DNA from: Bdellovibrio sp. NC01
GTDB lineage: Bacteria; Bdellovibrionota; Bdellovibrionia; Bdellovibrionales; Bdellovibrionaceae
DNA: 64,000 nucleotides
Direction of reading: 5' to 3'
Assembly (NCBI RefSeq): GCF_006874625.1
Contig: NZ_CP030034.1
Location: 1,860,001-1,924,000, forward strand
Part shown: in pieces, positions 6,617 to 61,689 of the stretch
Numbering within the stretch: position 1 is the stretch's first letter
How the letters are laid out: every line of letters begins with the position of its first letter
Program-made: the position numbers and the translations under genes
Notes under the pieces: generated by a model
Told to the model about the DNA's origin: nothing
Database searches by the model: none
The model's input: only the letters and a program-made list of their open reading frames with translations

Positions 6617-6903
6617 ATCGGGGTCTCAAGCTGTCACACTTTTAGGCACTTCTGAACTTTTCACAAGCTGCGCCAAAATCGTCCCAAGAAGGTCCACTTA
6701 GGAACTTCGAGCAAATGAAGGGTAGAGCGCGCGGCAACGATTTTAAGTGGTCCCCAGGCCTTCCGAGATTAAAGAAAATTTATCTGTTTACGAGTCCCAT
6801 TCGCTAGTGAAATTGGTGCTTTATCCTCTGTTGACGCTATGGATAAAATATATTACAGACTTGTCAGTAAAAAGTAACGGGCCTCGTGCTCACTTGGTGA
6901 ATA

Positions 6904-8142
6904 ATGATAATCGCTTATCTGCCATCGGTTCTAAAATTCTTATTCCTCATCATCCCCTTCGTATTACCGATGATGTGGATTATGGGCGCATTTGTGTTCT
7001 ACTTCAAAAGAGAACGCAAACGCTTTCAGCTTACAGAATTTTCTGAACAGCCATACACGATCTTGATTCCATGCTTTAATGAAGAAAAAACGGCGGAAGC
7101 AACGATCCTGTCTTTGGATCATTTGCCTGCAGATAAATGCGAAATCATCGCGATCAACGATGGTAGTCGCGATAAAACTCAAGCCGTGCTTGAGAAAATG
7201 GCGATGTCTCGTCCTCACATGCGTGTGATCAACCTTGTGCAAAACCGTGGTAAGGCCGCTGCTTTAACATTGGGTGCAATGGCAAGTCGTAACGAGTTCA
7301 TCTTGTGTATCGATGCCGATTCTGAATTGTCTGGCGATGCTCCACGAATCATGATGGAGCACTTCCGTGATCCAAATGTTGCCGGTGTGACTGGCAATCC
7401 GCGCGTAAAAAATCGTGGCACCTTGGTAGGTCGTCTGCAGGTCGGAGAGTTCTCGGCACTTGTTGGTATGATCAAACGTTATCACCAAACATTGGGACGC
7501 TTGTTCGCGTTGTCAGGCGTGTTGGTGATGTTCAGAAGATCCGCAATTGAAAGTGTTGGTTACTGGGATACAGATACAGTGACTGAAGACGTGGGTATCA
7601 GCTGGAAGTTGCAAACATCAGGTTGGGCTTTGAAATACGAACCTAAAGCGACTTGTGACGTCTTGATGCCGGATACTTTGAAGGGTTTGTGGAAACAAAG
7701 ACTTCGTTGGGCACAAGGCGGTTTTGAAGTCGTGTTGAAACACGGCAGATCCGTGATGAAGAGTCGCGATACAGGTCTGCGTTTGATTCTTTTAGAATAT
7801 ATTTTCTCTGTCACGTGGGCGTTCTTATTGCCGGTAACCATCGGCATTACCATTTTTGGTAAGAGCGTAAACGGTGTCGGTATCAACTATGCGATTTTGC
7901 TAACGGGCGTGATGAGTTTTCTTCAGTTCGTTGTGGGTCTGTTCCTGCATGGACGTTATGAACGTTCAACGGGTTTAGGATTTATCGCAATTTGGTATCC
8001 GTTTGCTTATTGGATGATTAATAGTTTTGTGTTATTCGTGGCGATTCCCAAAGTTTTGTTTGGACCGAAACGCCAATTCAGCTCTTGGATTTCTCCCGAT
8101 CGTGGTGGTGTGACATATGCGCAAGATAATAGAAACAGTTAG
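6904..8142 (+). CDS. pgaC: Processive family 2 glycosyltransferase, PgaC/IcaA-like
   Basis: 412 residues. An N-terminal membrane segment (residues ~1-28), a cytoplasmic GT2 domain and three C-terminal membrane segments match poly-beta-1,6-N-acetylglucosamine synthases. Motifs seen in order are NDGSRDKT, CIDADSEL, the acceptor-site TEDVGISWKL and QRLRWAQGG, giving the D,D,D,QxxRW signature of processive enzymes that build and extrude a polymer. It overlaps the PgaD-like gene by 26 bp, supporting a two-subunit synthase. The 287-bp leader (6617-6903) holds a possible TTGACG at ~6831 but no clear riboswitch. PgaA- and PgaB-like partners are absent nearby. Hyaluronan- or cellulose-type products cannot be excluded. 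Confidence 0.85.
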   Translation: MIIAYLPSVLKFLFLIIPFVLPMMWIMGAFVFYFKRERKRFQLTEFSEQPYTILIPCFNEEKTAEATILSLDHLPADKCEIIAINDGSRDKTQAVLEKMAMSRPHMRVINLVQNRGKAAALTLGAMASRNEFILCIDADSELSGDAPRIMMEHFRDPNVAGVTGNPRVKNRGTLVGRLQVGEFSALVGMIKRYHQTLGRLFALSGVLVMFRRSAIESVGYWDTDTVTEDVGISWKLQTSGWALKYEPKATCDVLMPDTLKGLWKQRLRWAQGGFEVVLKHGRSVMKSRDTGLRLILLEYIFSVTWAFLLPVTIGITIFGKSVNGVGINYAILLTGVMSFLQFVVGLFLHGRYERSTGLGFIAIWYPFAYWMINSFVLFVAIPKVLFGPKRQFSSWISPDRGGVTYAQDNRNS

Positions 8143-52682: not shown

Positions 52683-52880
52683 TTAGTTCGTAGGCTTTTT
52701 CTTGTTTGCGCCAGAGATACCAGTGTGGTTTCTCCAGTTGTATTGAGGATCAGTTTTAGTACGGTTGTGCCAAGCTTCCCATTTCTTCTTTGGAAGTTTG
52801 TGAGAAACGTTGCCTTTCTCGTCGAAGATATCTGGATCTTTACCAACTAAAAATTCACCAATGGCTTTTAGGATACCCAT
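52683..52880 (-). CDS. Small basic protein of unknown function (65 residues)
   Basis: Starts MGILKAIGEFLVGKDPDIFDE, an amphipathic N-terminal helix, then a Lys/Trp/Asn-rich segment (KKKWEAWHNRTKTD, YNWRNHTGISG) with no cysteine. TAAGGAGCAG precedes the ATG. A flanking terminator on each side shows it is its own transcript. The short strong unit suggests high expression. No family recognised. Confidence 0.8.
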   Translation of the reverse strand: MGILKAIGEFLVGKDPDIFDEKGNVSHKLPKKKWEAWHNRTKTDPQYNWRNHTGISGANKKKPTN

Positions 52881-53485: not shown

Positions 53486-53959
53486 ATGAAAACACTTGTG
53501 ATGCTTCTTCTGCTTAGTAGTGCTTCTGTGTCTCACGCTGTGACGAACGGAAGGTTTTTAGGTCAGCAATTTATGATCAATATTGCGGCTCAGAATCCGG
53601 ATGGCAGCAGTGATGATTTTCCACAAAAACTTTTCGAAGTGATGAATGTGCCGATCCAAGATTCGATGCTGGGCCCTGGGAAATCGCTGAAGGCGCCAGA
53701 AAGAACTCTGAATTTTATTTGCGCCAATCGCACCTCAGGCGGTTATACCTGCATGTTGTTGATTCATCGCACGGCCAATGCGCAATTGGGACTGAAAACA
53801 GCCAGCTTCAAAGCAAATGGCGAGCTTGCACAAGCCTTAGGGCAACAGTTTTTTCTGGGTAATGAACAAAAAATCGTTCTTTCTAATGCAGAGCACACTT
53901 TAGAAATTCAAGTGACACCTACAGACTTCAGTATTCGCTTTGACGAGCAAGGACTCTAG
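53486..53959 (+). CDS. Exported protein of unknown function
   Basis: 157 residues. MKTLVMLLLLSSASVSHA is a signal peptide. The mature part is beta-rich with one Cys pair (FICANR and YTCMLL). A short C-terminal segment (LEIQVTPTDFSIRFDE) ends in strands. It lies 43 bases before the App1-like gene, so it may join that operon. Not recognised. Confidence 0.75.
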   Translation: MKTLVMLLLLSSASVSHAVTNGRFLGQQFMINIAAQNPDGSSDDFPQKLFEVMNVPIQDSMLGPGKSLKAPERTLNFICANRTSGGYTCMLLIHRTANAQLGLKTASFKANGELAQALGQQFFLGNEQKIVLSNAEHTLEIQVTPTDFSIRFDEQGL

Positions 53960-54002: not shown

Positions 54003-54803
54003 ATGAAACTTTTCTCACTCGTATTTGTAGCTCTGTTATGGATTTCGGCAGCACAAGCAAAGACACTGGTTATTGCTGATGTCGACGACACGATTAAACT
54101 TGCCGACGTTCAGGATCTTGATGATGCCGCGGTTTATTCATTTGATGAAAACAGTCGTTATCTTGGAATGAGTGAACTGTTTGCGTTGATTCAAAAAGAC
54201 AATGCCGATGCTTCTTTTTACTATGTCACTCGCGCGCCGGCGTGGTGGATGCAGAAAACGCATTTGAACTTCTTGCGTAATGGAAGTTTCCCAGCGGGTG
54301 TTTATATTCCTCGTACAAATTATAGCTCTGACGAACACAAACTGCGCACGATCACTGCGATCATGAATGAACAAGCTCCAGATAAAGTGATCTTCTTTGG
54401 TGACAATACCGAAGCGGATGCCTCTGTTTACGAAGCAATTAAAAACAAATATGCGCCTGCTGGAATTCAATTCTTCCAATACATTCGCTGGGTCTATTCC
54501 ACTCAAGGTCGCGAACAGGTGGGAACTCCGATCTATGCGGATCAGACAGGGTTTGTGAGTCCAGTTGAGGTTTCCTTTGAATTGCGCAAACAGGGACTCT
54601 TAAGCGAAGACTCTGTGCTTTGGACTATGGAGAACATTGCCAGTGCCATCTTAAAGCAGAAGAAGGACTACGAGGTTGGTGTAGTAGCTTTTCCAAAGTT
54701 TATGCGATGTAATGACTTTGTTTGGAAATGGGATGATGTCGGTGTATATCCTTACCTTTCCGAATACAAAGAACGAGTCTTACAGCGCTGCCAAAAGCGT
54801 TAA
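54003..54803 (+). CDS. Exported HAD-fold hydrolase, App1 phosphatidate phosphatase-like (DUF2183)
   Basis: 266 residues. A signal peptide (MKLFSLVFVALLWISAAQA) is followed at once by the HAD motif VIADVDDTIK (Asp26, Asp28), then FYYVTRAPAWW and VIFFGDNTEAD. This is the catalytic layout of yeast App1 phosphatidate phosphatase domains. The mature enzyme would act in the periplasm or beyond, on phospholipid or other phosphomonoester. CGGAGG precedes the ATG. Nine bases separate it from the eight-cysteine gene. Confidence 0.82.
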   Translation: MKLFSLVFVALLWISAAQAKTLVIADVDDTIKLADVQDLDDAAVYSFDENSRYLGMSELFALIQKDNADASFYYVTRAPAWWMQKTHLNFLRNGSFPAGVYIPRTNYSSDEHKLRTITAIMNEQAPDKVIFFGDNTEADASVYEAIKNKYAPAGIQFFQYIRWVYSTQGREQVGTPIYADQTGFVSPVEVSFELRKQGLLSEDSVLWTMENIASAILKQKKDYEVGVVAFPKFMRCNDFVWKWDDVGVYPYLSEYKERVLQRCQKR

Positions 54804-54812
54804 CCGGGAACG

Positions 54813-55646
54813 ATGAATTTAAAGTACCAACTTCCGCTTATTTATCAAAATCTTCTGCCGCGAGAGATCCTTGAGTTCTCTCCGCAGGAAACGAAAGCGA
54901 CTTGCGATACCTGTGCGATGGCGCGTCCTCGCAATCAAGAAAAGATCCATTATCGCGAAGATTTGAAGTGCTGTACTTTCCATCCCTTTCTTCCTAATTA
55001 CATGGTCGGGGCTTTATTTAACGAAAGCTCATCAACACAAGCTCATGAAGTTTTCCGCGGCAAAATCGCTCGTCGTGAATACGCCTTGCCGATCGGAATG
55101 GTGGCGCCGGTAAAATATCAGGTAGGCTTCAATAATCGTGAAGAGCATGAATTTGGTCAGCGCGAAGATTGGTTGTGTCCGTACTACAATAAGCAAAATC
55201 AAAACTGCAATGTGTGGCGCAATCGCGGTGTTGTGTGCACGACTTTCTTCTGTAAAAGTTCTTACGGCAAAAAAGGCGAAGAGTTTTGGGAAAAACTTAG
55301 TAGTTATCTTTGGTATGTCGAACTTGCTTTGCTTGAAGAAGCTTTGGCGATGCTTGATTTTTCTCCACGTCAGGTGATGACGCTTCTTGATTATCATAAT
55401 CGTTATGACGGCACTGCGGCTGAAAAGAAGTCGATGTTTATGACTGAAGCTAAAGCTAAAGAGCTTTGGAATGGCTATTACGACGACCAGGAAGGATTTT
55501 ATAAAAAGTCCTTTGAGATTGTGTCGAATTTGGATAAAAAAGCCTTCCACGAGCTAATTGGTGAAACCGGGCAGTCGTTAGAGGAAGAACTGTTTGAAAT
55601 TCTTCCGCAAATGCCTGCAGCATTGAAAGCGAACGCAAATAAATGA
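54813..55646 (+). CDS. Eight-cysteine protein, YkgJ-like metal or Fe-S binder
   Basis: 277 residues. Cysteines lie at 31, 34, 53, 54, 122, 132, 142 and 147, in a CxxC, CC, C-x9-C-x9-C-x4-C pattern. KCCTFHPFLPNY recalls the YkgJ (PF03692) Cys-rich family, which is thought to bind a metal. The C-terminal ~100 residues are helical and acidic. There is no signal peptide. Its stop overlaps sufE by 4 bp (ATGA), which makes an Fe-S cluster more likely than zinc. Function not known. Confidence 0.75.
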   Translation: MNLKYQLPLIYQNLLPREILEFSPQETKATCDTCAMARPRNQEKIHYREDLKCCTFHPFLPNYMVGALFNESSSTQAHEVFRGKIARREYALPIGMVAPVKYQVGFNNREEHEFGQREDWLCPYYNKQNQNCNVWRNRGVVCTTFFCKSSYGKKGEEFWEKLSSYLWYVELALLEEALAMLDFSPRQVMTLLDYHNRYDGTAAEKKSMFMTEAKAKELWNGYYDDQEGFYKKSFEIVSNLDKKAFHELIGETGQSLEEELFEILPQMPAALKANANK

Positions 55647-56077
55647 GTATTCAAGAACGCCAAAACAAAATCATCGCTGACTTTTCTGCCTATACAGATT
55701 GGGAAGATCGCTACAAAAAAATCATCGAGATGGGTAAAGCTTTGCCAGAAATGCCAGAGTCTTTAAAAACCGAAGCGAACGCGGTTAAAGGTTGCCAGTC
55801 GCAAGTATGGTTGCATGCTTCTTTGAACGATCAAGGTCAGATGATTATCCAAGGCGATAGCGATGCGCTGATCGTTAAAGGTCTTGTGGCGTTGTTGTTG
55901 TCAGTCTATTCGGGTGGTGCACCCGCTGAAGTTTTAGCGACACCGCCAGAGTTTTTGAAAGCTTTGGGCTTCGAAGGTAATCTTTCGCCAAGTCGTGCGA
56001 ACGGTTTGCACTCCATGCTTAAACAAATCAAAAACTACGCGATGGCTTTTGATTACCTTTTAAAAACTAAACGCTAG
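55643..56077 (+). CDS. sufE: SufE-family Fe-S assembly sulfur acceptor
   Basis: 144 residues. The acceptor Cys51 is in NAVKGCQSQVW, the hallmark of SufE/CsdE, followed by DALIVKGLVALLLSVYSG. It takes persulfide from a SufS-type cysteine desulfurase. None of the other suf genes is adjacent. The start overlaps the eight-cysteine gene and the stop is one base before the NADAR gene ATG. It may have been recruited to mature the eight-cysteine protein. Confidence 0.93.
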   Translation: MSIQERQNKIIADFSAYTDWEDRYKKIIEMGKALPEMPESLKTEANAVKGCQSQVWLHASLNDQGQMIIQGDSDALIVKGLVALLLSVYSGGAPAEVLATPPEFLKALGFEGNLSPSRANGLHSMLKQIKNYAMAFDYLLKTKR

Positions 56078-56078
56078 T

Positions 56079-56678
56079 ATGAAACTGCTTTGGGGATTTT
56101 TGTTTCTGTTATTGGCTTCTTGTGTGCACAAGGCGCCGACAGCAACTCACTACGAACATTTTCCCAAGACTGAGCCAATTCCTTACAAAAATCCGATTCT
56201 TGATTTCTATTCTACAAAAGATGCTTACGGTGAGTTTTCGAATTTTGCCCTGTTTCCAGTATTTGTCGACGGGCAGTGGTGGGCGACGAGTGAGCATTAC
56301 TATCAGGCACATAAGTATGATAAACCTGATTTGATCTTTTGGGTTCAATCGGCACCATCACCGATGGAAGCCGCGAATCGCGGTCGCGATCAATTTGTTC
56401 CCAAACGTGCGGATTGGGATGCGACAAAAGATATGTTCATGGAAAAAGCCGTGATAGACAAATTCACACGCTATCCGGAATTGAAAGCCTTGTTGTTATC
56501 AACGGGATCTGCAAAACTTTACGAGCACACGAAGAACGATTGTTATTGGGGAGATTGCGGAGATCGCTCTGGTAAAAACAAACTGGGGCAATTGCTAGAG
56601 AAGGTTCGTGCTTCGCTGACTGCTTCAGCTTCGGGCTCAAGTGAACCCAAAGCTTTGTCAGAGTCAGTTAAGAACTAA
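56079..56678 (+). CDS. NADAR-domain lipoprotein (YbiA-like)
   Basis: 199 residues. The N-terminus MKLLWGFLFLLLASC with Cys15 in LASC is a lipoprotein signal. The rest is a NADAR domain: FYSTKDAYGEFSNFA, TSEHYYQAHKY with its conserved Glu, and LLLSTGSAKLYEHTKND then WGDCGDRSGKNKLGQLL. NADAR proteins hydrolyse N-glycosidic bonds of ribosyl-amine or ADP-ribosyl compounds and are usually cytoplasmic. A lipid-anchored member is unusual. The C-terminal ~20 residues are Ser/Ala-rich. It is the last gene of the App1/8-Cys/SufE unit. Confidence 0.85.
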   Translation: MKLLWGFLFLLLASCVHKAPTATHYEHFPKTEPIPYKNPILDFYSTKDAYGEFSNFALFPVFVDGQWWATSEHYYQAHKYDKPDLIFWVQSAPSPMEAANRGRDQFVPKRADWDATKDMFMEKAVIDKFTRYPELKALLLSTGSAKLYEHTKNDCYWGDCGDRSGKNKLGQLLEKVRASLTASASGSSEPKALSESVKN

Positions 56679-57073
56679 TTACCCAAAGTCTTACATTTCA
56701 AAGTGGCGTTGATATTTGTTTTTTCGCCAAGATCAAGAACACCTTTTAAAGTCACAGTGTCTTTGTCGTAGTTCACACCGATTGTGCCGTCATAAACACC
56801 CTCAGTGTATTTAGAGTCTTGCAAGTGAACTGTGCCAGTATCGCTGTCAGAAGTATCCAAAGTGCCGCGTAAAACCCAACCCCCAAAGATCAATGTGAAT
56901 TCAGTGTCACGGCCATCGCCTGTTGCATTTCGGTGCTCATAAACGTTCACCGCTAATTTTGCGGGATCATCGAAGACGGTAGCGTCGCCCGTGCATAACT
57001 TCCACGTGCTGTCTTTTGCGAAGGCTGGAGTTGTTGAACCTAATACAATCAATGCGGCGATAAGTTTTTTCAT
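56675..57073 (-). CDS. Exported beta-rich protein of unknown function
   Basis: 132 residues. MKKLIAALIVLGSTTPAFA is a signal peptide. The mature part alternates short strands (VHLQDSKYTEGVYDGTIGVNY, TLKGVLDLGEKTNINATLKC) with two cysteines (KLCTGD and LKCKTL) that likely bond the ends. It resembles small lipocalin-like or beta-sandwich secreted proteins. The stop interlocks with that of the NADAR gene. Confidence 0.75.
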   Translation of the reverse strand: MKKLIAALIVLGSTTPAFAKDSTWKLCTGDATVFDDPAKLAVNVYEHRNATGDGRDTEFTLIFGGWVLRGTLDTSDSDTGTVHLQDSKYTEGVYDGTIGVNYDKDTVTLKGVLDLGEKTNINATLKCKTLGN

Positions 57074-57249
57074 GAATTCTCCTGAATATCGGAAGCTTGT
57101 AGCATATCCACGGTAAAATGAATCAATTCAAAATTAATTCTGAAAGGATTGTAAGGTGTTTTAGTAAGAAACCCGCGCCAAGTCCCGTGTAGGTCTGCAT
57201 ATTTGGGCTCATTCTTTAATGTCGGGATAAAATAAGAGCAGGAGGTCGT

Positions 57250-57471
57250 ATGGACAAAAATAAAATCGAGGAGGGCGGACCTATGGGTATTGGCAACTCC
57301 GCCAGTTCCCCTCAGCATATTGGTGTAAATGGCACCGGAATCGAGACGTCCCCTGAAATCCTAGAGACTTTAAAGGATACGTCCCTAAAAGACGTCATGA
57401 AAGGGCAAAGGGTTGAAACCGACGATCTTGATAAAGATGAAGGCATCAGCCCTTTAGAGAACTCATTTTAG
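57250..57471 (+). CDS. Small acidic disordered protein (73 residues)
   Basis: A strong AGGAGG lies five bases before the ATG. The sequence is hydrophilic, acidic and low in aromatic residues (MDKNKIEEGGPMGIGN..., ...DDLDKDEGISPLENSF), with no membrane segment or Cys, and is probably disordered. A TAAAAT box at 57228-57233 lies upstream. The 3' end interlocks with the convergent Cys-repeat gene. A second small hydrophilic gene with the same layout is at 60270. Confidence 0.7.
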   Translation: MDKNKIEEGGPMGIGNSASSPQHIGVNGTGIETSPEILETLKDTSLKDVMKGQRVETDDLDKDEGISPLENSF

Positions 57472-57827
57472 CGATTGAAGTGGCCGTCGCTACCTGTGGC
57501 GGAGCAATGATCCATGCCGGGTCCAACCCAGCCGTAACCCGTGCAGAAGTAAGGCTCTGCTTCATTCGGGCATTTGTCGCGATTAATTTGACAGACAAAT
57601 CGAGCTTCGATGCGTGGATCAGTTACCTTTGGTGTCGTGGTTGCGGGTTTAGAAATGTTTTTTTCAGAACAGAAGATGTCTGAGTTATTCCACGTAATTT
57701 CGTAACAAGCATAGGGGGCTTGTTCTGGACAGCTTTCAGTGTCGATGCCACAAATAACCGGTGTCGCAAAAGCTTGCCCTGAAGCGAAGACAAGCAATCC
57801 AAGCGCTAAAAGTTTTAATATTTTCAT
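57468..57827 (-). CDS. Exported protein with two tandem four-cysteine modules
   Basis: 119 residues. The signal peptide ends at about residue 21 (SGQAFA). Two similar units follow: Cys26, 33, 41, 53 and Cys79, 86, 95, 108, each C-x6-C-x7/8-C-x11/12-C with Pro after the second Cys and Tyr/Trp before the fourth. They are joined by a Pro/Thr/Lys linker. The pattern suggests a duplicated disulfide-rich module. I do not recognise the family. Confidence 0.8.
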   Translation of the reverse strand: MKILKLLALGLLVFASGQAFATPVICGIDTESCPEQAPYACYEITWNNSDIFCSEKNISKPATTTPKVTDPRIEARFVCQINRDKCPNEAEPYFCTGYGWVGPGMDHCSATGSDGHFNR

Positions 57828-57932
57828 GATTATTCCTTTGTAGAAGGCTGTTTCGAATCGCGCCTTTGAACCATTTTTTACGCAAATCTTTAGTTGAATA
57901 AAAGAGAAATATACGCAATAACCTGTTCCAGT

Positions 57933-58790
57933 ATGGAAACGGAACGCTTACGCTATTTTACGGTGATTGCAGAAACGGGAAGCCTGACAAAGGCCTCTCA
58001 ACTTTTAGGTATCTCGCACAGTGGCTTGTCGAAAGCCATTTCATCACTTGAAGCTGAAACCAGCTTAAAATTATTCCGACCTCAAGGACGTGGCTTAGAA
58101 ATCACACCTGAAGGCAAGTGGTTCTATCAAAAAGCCCAAGAGATTTTGAAAATCGCCAATGAAATTAAAATGGGCAAAGTTACTGAACTAGGTGCCATTA
58201 GTTTGGGAATGTCTTCCGTCGTGGGTTCGACGTGTTCGGGGGAAATCGCCAAAGAGTTGAAAGAGTCTTTGCGTATTTACGAATTAGACTTAGGCGAAAT
58301 CGAAGGAAAAATTCTTTCTGGCGATATCCACTTCGGAGTCGCTTTCGTGCCAGCTCCACGACCGGAGTTAGAATATCTTGAGTTGGGTGAAGTGACGTTT
58401 GCGACTTATGCACGTAAGGATCTGTATCGCGCAACACCCGCGCAAGAATTGCCGTTCGCAGTGCCGTTATCGGAATATCCCGATAATCCATTGGGTTATC
58501 GCAATCGCGATGGTTTTCCACTGGAAATTCCTCGTCGTGCGGAACACTTTGTTGCAAGCTTCGCGATTGGTTTGAATTTATTAAGAAGTGGCCAAGCTGC
58601 TTTGTATATGGCGGATTTTGTCGCGGATCAGGAAAATAAATTCGTTCGTGAAGATCTTCATCTTGTAAAAATAAAGGAATTTAAGTCAGCAGAAACGAAA
58701 CGGAAGTTATATTTAGTTAAGCGCCAGTCTGCTGAAGAATCTAAAGAGATGAAGAAAATTGCCAAAGTCTTACGCCGCATCTGCTGTTGA
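57933..58790 (+). CDS. LysR-family transcriptional regulator
   Basis: 285 residues from ATG 57933. The N-terminal winged helix has RLRYFTVIAETGSLTKASQLLG, then GISHSGLSKAISSLEAETSLKLF. The C-terminal ~200 residues form the effector-binding fold (GAISLGMSSVVG, then IHFGVAFVPAP). The ATG has no Shine-Dalgarno sequence and sits 11 bases past an AATAAC box, so a short-leader mRNA is likely. The target is not evident: neighbours on each side face other ways or are not enzymes of one pathway. Confidence 0.9.
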   Translation: METERLRYFTVIAETGSLTKASQLLGISHSGLSKAISSLEAETSLKLFRPQGRGLEITPEGKWFYQKAQEILKIANEIKMGKVTELGAISLGMSSVVGSTCSGEIAKELKESLRIYELDLGEIEGKILSGDIHFGVAFVPAPRPELEYLELGEVTFATYARKDLYRATPAQELPFAVPLSEYPDNPLGYRNRDGFPLEIPRRAEHFVASFAIGLNLLRSGQAALYMADFVADQENKFVREDLHLVKIKEFKSAETKRKLYLVKRQSAEESKEMKKIAKVLRRICC

Positions 58791-58862
58791 TATTTCTTAA
58801 ATTCGTGAAATGAGTGCGGGCTAATTTGACTACGTGTAGATGTCCATAGATACATTTTCGTG

Positions 58863-59585
58863 ATGAAAGTTAATGTATCCACTCTATTTAAAGACATTCT
58901 GACGAATAAAAATTACGCCATTTATCTCGCCGATAAAAACGGTCAAGTGGGGCTGTGGAACAGCCTTGCGGAAAAACTGTTCGGTTTTCTTGCTCAAGAA
59001 ATTGTGGCCTTAAATGAAAAAATTATTTTTCATGCGTTCGACGAAAAGGTCAGTTGCGGTGGTTATCGCTTCCGCTGGCGTATGCGTAAGGATGGATCGG
59101 CCTTCTTTGCTAAAGAAACAGTTATCGAAGTGACTGATTCGCCAAGTCCTCGTTATCGATTTCTAAAAATTGTCGAAAATCTTTCAGAGCATCTGACGGC
59201 TTTTGAAAAAAGCGAGTTAATGAGCGCACAATATAAAAACACGGACCGTGGCGGCTCGGCCATTATGGATTTAAATCAAAAGATCCTCGTTGCAGCCTCG
59301 CGCTTACCTGATTCTATTAATTTGAAAATGAATGAGTTTGTTGGATCGAAAGCTGAAAACCTGGCAGTTGATGGTCCGACAGTGATGGCGAAATTAATAA
59401 AGACCACACAAAATATGAACCGCTCCCAAACGATTGTAACGATTGAAGGTCGCGACAAATTGCGAAGCACTTGGTTGTCGGACGTTCGCCTCTTAACCGA
59501 TAATAAGGGTGATGCCATTTTCTGTAGTTATTCGTGGAATTTAAGTGCCATAGCAGAAAACACTTCTCGGCATCTTTATTCATAA
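58863..59585 (+). CDS. PAS-domain protein of unknown output
   Basis: 240 residues. The first ~115 residues follow a PAS domain (YAIYLADKNGQVGLWNSLAEKLFG..., RFRWRMRKDGSAFFAKETVIEV). The second half, including NLKMNEFVGSKAENLA, may be a second sensory fold. No kinase, cyclase or HTH domain is visible, so it would act by protein contact. ATG 58863 is used; a GTG three bases earlier is possible. Confidence 0.75.
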   Translation: MKVNVSTLFKDILTNKNYAIYLADKNGQVGLWNSLAEKLFGFLAQEIVALNEKIIFHAFDEKVSCGGYRFRWRMRKDGSAFFAKETVIEVTDSPSPRYRFLKIVENLSEHLTAFEKSELMSAQYKNTDRGGSAIMDLNQKILVAASRLPDSINLKMNEFVGSKAENLAVDGPTVMAKLIKTTQNMNRSQTIVTIEGRDKLRSTWLSDVRLLTDNKGDAIFCSYSWNLSAIAENTSRHLYS

Positions 59586-59604
59586 TATTTCACAAGGAGA
59601 TCCC

Positions 59605-60138
59605 ATGAATGCTTGGCACGATATTGAGCTTGGAAAGAATGCACCTGAAGTTGTGAACGCCATCATCGAGATCCCGCGATTTTCCAAAACTAAATTTGAA
59701 CTGGATAAAGAGTCGGGCTTGTTGAAGGTCGACCGTGTTCTTTATAGCTCTGTTCATTATCCGGCAAACTATGGATTTATTCCGCGCACCTATTCCGATG
59801 ACAAAGACCCACTCGATATTTTAGTTTTTGGCCAAGCCGATGTGTATCCGTTGTCTATTATGCAAGCGCGCCCCATTGGTTATATGCGCATGTTCGATCA
59901 AGACGAAATCGATGACAAAATTATCTCGGTTCATGCGGATGATCCTGAAATGGCGGAAGTTCATTCGATCAGTGATTTGGCTCCGCATACGCTTAAAGAG
60001 ATTCAGAATTTTTTTGAAATCTATAAAGGTCTTGAGAACAAAAAGGTTTCGGTTGAAGGTTTTAAAGATAAACCGGAAGCGATCAAGATAATCAGACAAG
60101 CGATGGGCGATTATCAAGCACACTTTAAAACAAAATAA
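59605..60138 (+). CDS. ppa: Inorganic pyrophosphatase (family I)
   Basis: 177 residues. It hydrolyses pyrophosphate to drive biosynthesis. The metal-binding signature is DDKDPLDILVFG near residue 64-75. YPANYGFIPRTY and PRFSKTKFELDKESG are the family N-terminal blocks, and AHFK ends a normal-length chain. CAAGGAGA precedes the ATG. Confidence 0.97.
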   Translation: MNAWHDIELGKNAPEVVNAIIEIPRFSKTKFELDKESGLLKVDRVLYSSVHYPANYGFIPRTYSDDKDPLDILVFGQADVYPLSIMQARPIGYMRMFDQDEIDDKIISVHADDPEMAEVHSISDLAPHTLKEIQNFFEIYKGLENKKVSVEGFKDKPEAIKIIRQAMGDYQAHFKTK

Positions 60139-60269
60139 ATTTCGGCAACAAAAGTGACCAAGGCCCCATCTCGTCTAGGTGCGAACATCCTGCAAGGGCT
60201 GTGATATGTGTCTGCCAAAGAGTAAAATAAAGATGTACCTCGAATAGGTGCATTGCTTAGGAGGCAGTT

Positions 60270-60455
60270 ATGGCAGACAAAAATATGCAAAACCAATCCG
60301 GACAGTTTAATAAAGACAAAGTATCATCCAACGCTCCAGAAAAAGATCTCAATAAAACGGGCGCGACAAAACCTCTAGATGACAAAACATCTCGAGACAG
60401 TATGACTGGCAGAGATGCCAATCGTAGTTCCGATTCATCTAGTTTTCGCAAATAG
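60270..60455 (+). CDS. Small hydrophilic disordered protein (61 residues)
   Basis: A strong TAGGAGG precedes the ATG. The sequence is rich in Asp, Lys, Ser, Asn and Thr, with no hydrophobic core (MADKNMQNQSGQFNKDK..., DANRSSDSSSFRK). A TAAAAT box at 60223-60228 lies 41 bases upstream. Followed by a terminator. It resembles small stress-related or spacer proteins but matches no family I know. Confidence 0.7.
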   Translation: MADKNMQNQSGQFNKDKVSSNAPEKDLNKTGATKPLDDKTSRDSMTGRDANRSSDSSSFRK

Positions 60456-60498
60456 TTTTGAGATCTAGCGAAAGAATTCAGGTGCGATGCAAGTAAGG

Positions 60499-60531
60499 AA
60501 AAGTAGAGGATTCATGTCCTCTACTTTTTTA
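60499..60531 (+). terminator. Terminator after the 61-residue protein gene
   Basis: A 12-bp stem (AAAAGTAGAGGA with TCCTCTACTTTT, loop TTCATG) is followed by TT. Confidence 0.85.
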
Positions 60532-60547
60532 TATTCTAATTGACGAT

Positions 60548-60562
60548 GTTAGCTCGACTAAC
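60548..60562. promoter_or_regulatory. Inverted repeat near a -35-like hexamer upstream of the 86-residue exported protein gene
   Basis: GTTAG and CTAAC flank CTCGA, just after a TTGACG at ~60541. An operator is possible, but the -10 region is poor. Confidence 0.25.
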
Positions 60563-60681
60563 AATCTCGATCTGATTCAAGAATTCATACTGGCTGCAAT
60601 CCGAAATTAACAAAGATTAATTCCAATCTCATCGGACTTTAATGCCCCTGCGATAGCCTGAATTCAACAAAGGGGGACTTT

Positions 60682-60942
60682 ATGAAAAGTCTTATCGCTA
60701 CAATGATCGTGTTGGGTTCGGTATCAGCGTTCGCACAAGGTGGAGAGAAAAATCATCCATGCCAGGAAATCAAAAAGGCGTGCGAGTCAGCGGGTTTTGT
60801 AAAGGGTGAGCACAAAGAGAAAAAAGGTCTTTATAAAGACTGCGTGCAACCCGTGCTTGCCGGTCAATCAGTGGCCGGTGTGACTGTCGGTTCTGATGTT
60901 GTTGCTGCTTGCAACGCTAAAAAAGCTGAGAAGAAAAAATAG
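60682..60942 (+). CDS. Small exported cysteine-containing protein
   Basis: 86 residues. MKSLIATMIVLGSVSAFA is a signal peptide. The mature part has four cysteines (HPCQEI, KACESAG, KDCVQP, AACNAK) with helical Lys/Glu-rich spacing and ends in a basic tail. AAAGGGGGA precedes the ATG. Not recognised. Confidence 0.78.
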   Translation: MKSLIATMIVLGSVSAFAQGGEKNHPCQEIKKACESAGFVKGEHKEKKGLYKDCVQPVLAGQSVAGVTVGSDVVAACNAKKAEKKK

Positions 60943-60954
60943 ATTTTAGAAAGT

Positions 60955-60980
60955 AAAAAGGGCTTCGTAAGAAGCCCTTT
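60955..60980 (-). terminator. Terminator between small exported protein gene and yebC
   Basis: AAAGGGCTTC pairs with GAAGCCCTTT around GTAA. On the minus strand it ends in five T, so it mainly serves yebC, but it may also stop the upstream plus-strand gene. Confidence 0.75.
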
Positions 60981-60987
60981 GGTTAAG

Positions 60988-61689
60988 TTAAATTGTCGCA
61001 TGCACTCTGTGAGTGTCGTCCATGTCGTCTAGGTAGTTCAAAAACTCTTCGACGTCTTTACGTTGATCATCATTCAGCTCAGTGATGTTTTTCGCTTTAT
61101 AAGAAAGTTCTGCTTTCTCTACTTTCCAACCACGTTTAGTTAGAGCATCACGAACGGCATCAAGGTCACTAGAATTTGTGAAGAACTCGTAAGAGCCATC
61201 ATCGTTTTTAGAAACTTCGTTTGCACCGGCTTCGATAGCTTCCTCATCTGGATCGAATGAACCAGCTTTTGTCGCCTCGATCAAACCCACGTGATCAAAC
61301 ATCCATGCCACGGAACCCGTTTCACCCATGTTGCCTTCGTGCGATTTGAAAGCGTGACGCATGTCTGGAGCTGTTCTGTGTTTGTTGTCTGTTTGACATT
61401 CAACGATCACACCAACACCGTGAGGGCCGTAGCCTTCGTACATCAACTCTTCAATAACCTTACCGTCATCAAGAAGACCTGCACCTTTTTTGATAGCGCG
61501 ATCAATCGTATCGTTCGGGCAAGATTCTTTTTTTGCTGCATCAATCGCCATGCGAAGACGAGCATTCGCCGCGGGGTCAGGTCCACCAGCTTTAGCTGCG
61601 ACTTGAATCTCGCGCGCTAGCTTTGTGAAAATTTGACCCTTCTGTTGGGCTTTCTCTACTTTACCTGCGTTTTTCCATGATTTTCCCAT
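60988..61689 (-). CDS. yebC: YebC/PmpR-family regulator (TACO1 family)
   Basis: 233 residues. The N-terminal MGKSWKNAGKVEKAQQKGQIFTK (shown in part) and FTKLAREIQVAAKAGG are the family start. YEGYGPHGVGVIVECQTDN and the final acidic domain are conserved. Family members act as DNA-binding regulators or, as shown for TACO1 and some bacterial YebC, promote translation of polyproline. No ruvC-ruvA-ruvB neighbours are seen here. Confidence 0.95.
   Translation of the reverse strand: MGKSWKNAGKVEKAQQKGQIFTKLAREIQVAAKAGGPDPAANARLRMAIDAAKKESCPNDTIDRAIKKGAGLLDDGKVIEELMYEGYGPHGVGVIVECQTDNKHRTAPDMRHAFKSHEGNMGETGSVAWMFDHVGLIEATKAGSFDPDEEAIEAGANEVSKNDDGSYEFFTNSSDLDAVRDALTKRGWKVEKAELSYKAKNITELNDDQRKDVEEFLNYLDDMDDTHRVHATI

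Follow-up and report, generated by a model that had tools for sequence, protein, structure and literature searches.

Four open reading frames follow one another on the plus strand of the 64,000-nt stretch that was analysed (the window), and the source genome is a single contig of 3.98 Mb. They encode an App1-like phosphatase (APP1), an eight-cysteine protein (CYS8), SufE and a protein of the NADAR family, and are set apart by 9 nt, by a 4-nt overlap (-4) and by 1 nt, respectively (Table 1). The coordinates, gaps and families given for these genes in the original prediction were all borne out by the ORF list, Pfam and NCBIfam. A fifth gene, absent from that prediction, encodes a 157-aa protein predicted to be exported (up157) and, on the same strand, stops 43 nt short of APP1. 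Spacing of this kind is common in the window, where gaps of 20 nt or less separate 19 of the 39 same-strand neighbour pairs and two runs of four genes are spaced this tightly (gaps ≤20 nt). Therefore, the tight spacing suggests co-transcription of the four genes and not a shared function. A scan for promoters and terminators gave no signal above chance.

Table 1. Genes of the locus, with positions in the window and the basis of each assignment
Feature	Position	Strand	Basis or remark
up157, 157 aa, predicted to be exported, beta-rich	53486..53959	+	opens the unit in most Bdellovibrio; position upstream of APP1, fusion, signal peptide
APP1-like HAD phosphatase, predicted to be exported	54003..54803	+	PF09949
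CYS8, eight-cysteine protein, split CX2C-X18-CC motif, CxxCxxCC/FliB-like	54813..55646	+	sub-threshold PF03692, hhalign, invariant Cys
SufE, sulfur acceptor, sole genomic copy	55643..56077	+	PF02657, PDB 1mzg match
NADAR (YbiA-type) predicted lipoprotein, adjacent, outside the conserved unit	56079..56678	+	PF08719, TIGR02464, PDB 2b3w match

Gene order was compared in about 140 relatives, with 144 genomes standing for the class and 369 for the phylum. The proposal that all four genes form one unit held only in part beyond close strains: APP1-CYS8-SufE was kept in six genera and CYS8-SufE in four families, whereas NADAR adjoined SufE in the source genome only. CYS8 was detected in 93 of the 144 genomes of the class, and a search of the 369 phylum genomes with its profile added just one genome to the class-wide set. 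In 78 of the 90 Bdellovibrionia genomes having both genes (families f1, f5, f7 and f9), CYS8 was within 700 nt of sufE, and in 12 the two were apart. Both genes ran in the same direction at 55 of the 56 loci where they are adjacent, and the same-strand junctions were 40 nt or shorter or overlapping in 45 of 48, many of them overlapping. APP1 was found directly 5' of CYS8 in 28 of 28 loci from six genera of one family, with junctions of -13 to +19 nt; in a further genus (G003, locus L152) it stood directly 5' of SufE, and CYS8 was gone. SufE does not need CYS8, since 36 of the 126 genomes with SufE had no recognisable CYS8. Among the places listed, no canonical CxxCxxCC protein was seen to replace CYS8 beside SufE in the CYS8-less genomes, and no CYS8 was found on plasmids. 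In Bacteroidetes MAGs (L198 and L199), a CYS8 relative (29-34%) has a DNA polymerase I-like gene as its neighbour, and SufE is not found nearby. APP1-CYS8-SufE (plus up157) is a real and lasting three-gene unit in Bdellovibrio-type bacteria, and NADAR is a chance neighbour because its adjacency is unique to the source genome while its orthologues are found elsewhere. The four-gene unit is thus separable into a part that is kept, CYS8-SufE with APP1 joined later, and a local accident, NADAR.

CYS8 has 277 aa and exactly eight cysteines (31, 34, 53, 54, 122, 132, 142 and 147), all of which were invariant in 60 of 60 proteins. The first four are arranged as C31-x2-C34-x18-C53-C54, and the contiguous C-x2-C-x2-C-C does not occur. 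Against PF03692 (CxxCxxCC) the protein scored 15.3 bits (E 0.033), under the curated cut-off of 23; sub-threshold matches of this kind were seen in 13 of 30 rows for CYS8 and its relatives, with E 1.8e-4 for the best relative. In hhalign comparisons with canonical CxxCxxCC proteins, represented by six sequences only, the probability was 83-85% and E ranged from 6e-6 to 9e-6, with the cysteines aligned in register. The likeness to the CxxCxxCC/YkgJ superfamily, which includes the flagellin lysine methyltransferase FliB, lies in eight ordered cysteines: CxxC, CC and then C..C-x2-[WY]-x2-R-x3-C. However, an insert of 18 residues parts CxxC from CC, a long helical half forms the C-terminus, and the gene stands beside sufE. 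The split arrangement also departs from the CX4CX3CC motif of FliB (PMC8598068). The AF2 model had a pLDDT of 94, and its fold had no match in the PDB at E≤0.001; the best VIA-align Z in the fold searches of CYS8 and up157 was an uninformative 4.3. For CYS8 no NCBIfam match was obtained, and no extra domains were found in longer relatives. CYS8 is best read from its sequence as a split-motif, divergent relative of the CxxCxxCC/FliB cysteine-cluster proteins. Salmonella FliB carries CX4CX3CC, its conserved cysteines number eight, and its lysine methylation depends on a single [4Fe-4S] cluster (PMC8598068). By analogy with this relative by motif, CYS8 would be expected to bind an Fe-S cluster as well. 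A literature search on YkgJ or CxxCxxCC together with Fe-S found nothing relevant.

The FliB precedent (PMC8598068) also brings up the reading that CYS8 itself is a FliB-like methyltransferase of flagellin or of another surface protein, with its cluster supplied by SufE. Flagellin was present in 93 of 93 CYS8 genomes, and CYS8 was absent from all 15 flagellin-less genomes of the class, a pattern that would suit a FliB-like role. However, the flagellin-less genomes are small and belong to one family, so that the association is confounded, and 36 genomes have flagellin without CYS8. Moreover, the Bacteroidetes MAGs hold CYS8 away from sufE, and CYS8 of the source genome is not near flagellar genes and lacks an NCBIfam match. 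We regard a FliB-like role as highly unlikely.

The identity of SufE is plain from a full-domain match to PF02657 (E 3.3e-47, 159.7 bits, cut-off 27) and from its best PDB match, E. coli SufE (1mzg, E 9e-26), with the catalytic C51 in register; against the equivalog NF006792 (cysteine desulfuration protein SufE) it scored 120.5 bits, below the cut-off of 160. The acceptor C51 lies in GCQSxVW and passed a 95% conservation threshold across 49 sequences. These features agree with the SufS-SufE sulfur transfer of E. coli. The gene position does not, since sufE is in a predicted operon with CYS8, 1.76 Mb from sufBCDS. The suf operon, at 156-162 kb, encodes an Rrf2-type regulator, SufB, SufC, SufD, SufS and an Nfu-like protein, with SufB and SufD named by Pfam and the others by reading of the ORFs, and it includes no SufE. 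As the protein encoded beside CYS8 is the single SufE match in the source genome and the suf operon has none, it most likely serves the whole SUF pathway and not CYS8 alone. A SufE paralogue dedicated to CYS8 was ruled out on the same ground, there being only one SufE in the genome. Literature searched for Bdellovibrio SufE yielded nothing relevant.

How much the conserved order says about function was judged against the other neighbours of SufE. In the same families as CYS8, the genes flanking SufE also include YebC, a ferritin-like gene and RluB, all named by reading the sequences. At the 35 loci outside the family, YebC adjoined SufE in 19 and CYS8 adjoined it in 14. The pairing of SufE with YebC thus has roughly the same age as that of SufE with CYS8, so that some of the order is no more than conserved synteny, and taken by itself gene order is weak support for a functional CYS8-SufE pair. 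On the minus strand at 52683-52880, o52683 encodes a 65-aa protein without Pfam match, 85-97% identical within the genus; in other families it can be recognised at the equivalent position upstream of CYS8/SufE, and it often stays where CYS8 is missing. The whole series o52683-(APP1)-CYS8-SufE-YebC-DUF455-RluB could thus be an old, slowly decaying neighbourhood in which no gene works with the next. Such an account fits the shared flanking genes, the several CYS8-less genomes that keep o52683 and YebC around SufE, and the frequency of tight gaps in the window. It sits less well with the strands: CYS8 and SufE are nearly always together on one and usually overlap or nearly so, whereas YebC is mostly on the strand opposite to SufE. 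Junctions that lie on one strand and often overlap speak for co-expression, and we consider plain synteny somewhat unlikely. We infer that the CYS8-sufE unit is co-transcribed.

At the 5' end of the unit, APP1 matched PF09949 (APP1_cat) at E 1.1e-17 and 64.9 bits against a cut-off of 27.1. The HAD motifs of App1-type phosphatidate phosphatases are present, namely DxDDT (D26, D28, D29 and T30), K113 and the G133-D134 of motif IV, and were kept in 26-28 of 28 relatives; D139 is also present. APP1 differs from these enzymes in its export signal, plain by eye (MKLFSLVFVALLWISAAQA), and in two conserved cysteines, C236 and C263, as in an oxidised exported protein. Both phosphatase activity and export are predicted on these features. 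To our knowledge, no bacterial App1-type member has been assayed. The up157 gene lies upstream of APP1 in 14 genomes of the genus, the source genome included. Its product has a signal peptide and invariant C79 and C89, and the AF2 model (pLDDT 88) had no PDB match at E≤0.001. In one relative (G035, locus L052, minus strand, 6794-8059) up157 and APP1 are fused as one ORF. There the HAD nucleophile Asp is Asn (NVEDT for DVDDT), indicating that the fused protein is probably not an active phosphatase. up157 belongs with APP1, and the two are probably an exported phosphatase of lipids or phosphoesters and its beta-domain partner.

NADAR matched PF08719 (E 8.7e-29, 101.3 bits, cut-off 35.1) and TIGR02464 (112.4 bits, cut-off 73.7), and its best PDB match was E. 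coli YbiA (2b3w, E 1.2e-43). The catalytic E72, K79 and E149 (the YbiA-type glutamate) are retained, and were invariant in nine aligned orthologues. Unlike E. coli YbiA, the protein has a lipoprotein signal, with a lipobox (LASC) plain by eye, and an added C155-x4-C160 pair, and it is predicted to be exported. It also differs from the NADAR toxin-antitoxin systems (DarT-NADAR, YarT-YbiA), as no ADP-ribosyltransferase (ART toxin) gene is adjacent; the gene is flanked by sufE and by an ORF for an exported 132-aa protein that has no Pfam match. A second NADAR of the source genome (L112, C1:2128150-2128584, outside the window) is 31% identical, lies between unknown ORFs and has neither signal nor cysteine pair; it could be an antitoxin-type NADAR.

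Orthologues of the lipoprotein NADAR (62-73% identity) were found far from CYS8 in 12 relatives, namely eleven other genomes of the genus and G037. As their sites are many and unrelated, with only two common to more than one genome, NADAR is a roaming single gene. Membership of NADAR in the unit was ruled out, SufE and NADAR being adjacent in no other genome. The yebC gene of the source genome is found 4.3 kb past the downstream end of NADAR; in relatives it comes directly after SufE or after other genes. A synteny breakpoint after SufE was also rejected, as YebC is still found downstream, and NADAR is therefore an insertion into a variable slot. This sufE-yebC slot (56675-60990) holds NADAR, small exported ORFs, a LysR gene, a PAS-like ORF and an inorganic pyrophosphatase; relatives have a trypsin-like protease or other genes there. 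The idea of a common theme that would join ADP-ribose chemistry and Fe-S work to a lipid phosphatase gained no support. An envelope system built of a lipid phosphatase, an Fe-S protein, SufE and an ADP-ribose hydrolase would account for the tight spacing, which is seen in the source genome only; with an adjacency found nowhere else and orthologues at many sites, the chance that such a system exists is negligible.

A profile of the lipoprotein NADARs matched in 37 of the 369 phylum genomes, and YbiA-type NADARs with export signals occur at scattered sites in about nine genera of Bdellovibrionota (56079-56678; L113-L124, L292-L310). As judged by eye and hydropathy, not by SignalP, 31 of the 33 collected sequences have a hydrophobic signal at the start, in which a lipobox-like Cys may or may not be present. 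Most carry a C-x4-C pair (DCYWGDCGDR) that is absent from E. coli YbiA, and the YbiA-type catalytic residues are kept. In the NADAR literature searched, the enzymes act on nucleic acids or metabolites and export is not mentioned, for which reason exported NADARs across Bdellovibrionota may be a more surprising lead than the SufE unit.

The explanation that we favour, with moderate confidence, is a conserved three-gene operon (four genes with up157 in most Bdellovibrio) whose core is CYS8 and a SufE co-expressed with its Fe-S client, and to whose end NADAR is a newcomer. SufE would take persulfide sulfur on Cys51 from the SufS of the distant suf operon and pass it to cluster assembly. If CYS8 and SufE are both made from a single mRNA, in which the stop codon of one gene often overlaps the start codon of the next, the supply of sulfur would be linked to the synthesis of a cytoplasmic Fe-S client. 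The exported up157-APP1 pair would have joined upstream of CYS8 in the Bdellovibrionaceae lineage, and NADAR, an exported YbiA-type N-glycosidase, would have entered the sufE-yebC slot in the source lineage only, where transcription of the operon probably continues into it without a functional tie. A bolder version, in which CYS8 is the founding member of a new class of split-motif Fe-S enzymes made with SufE and up157-APP1 acts on the same envelope target, has in our judgement a small probability; if true, it would mean that Bdellovibrio-type bacteria couple the delivery of sulfur to a cysteine-cluster modification enzyme. The favoured operon locates the SufE that the Bdellovibrio suf operon is without. 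Furthermore, CYS8, with eight invariant cysteines and one usual partner gene, offers a small and clean family for probing CxxCxxCC function beyond FliB.
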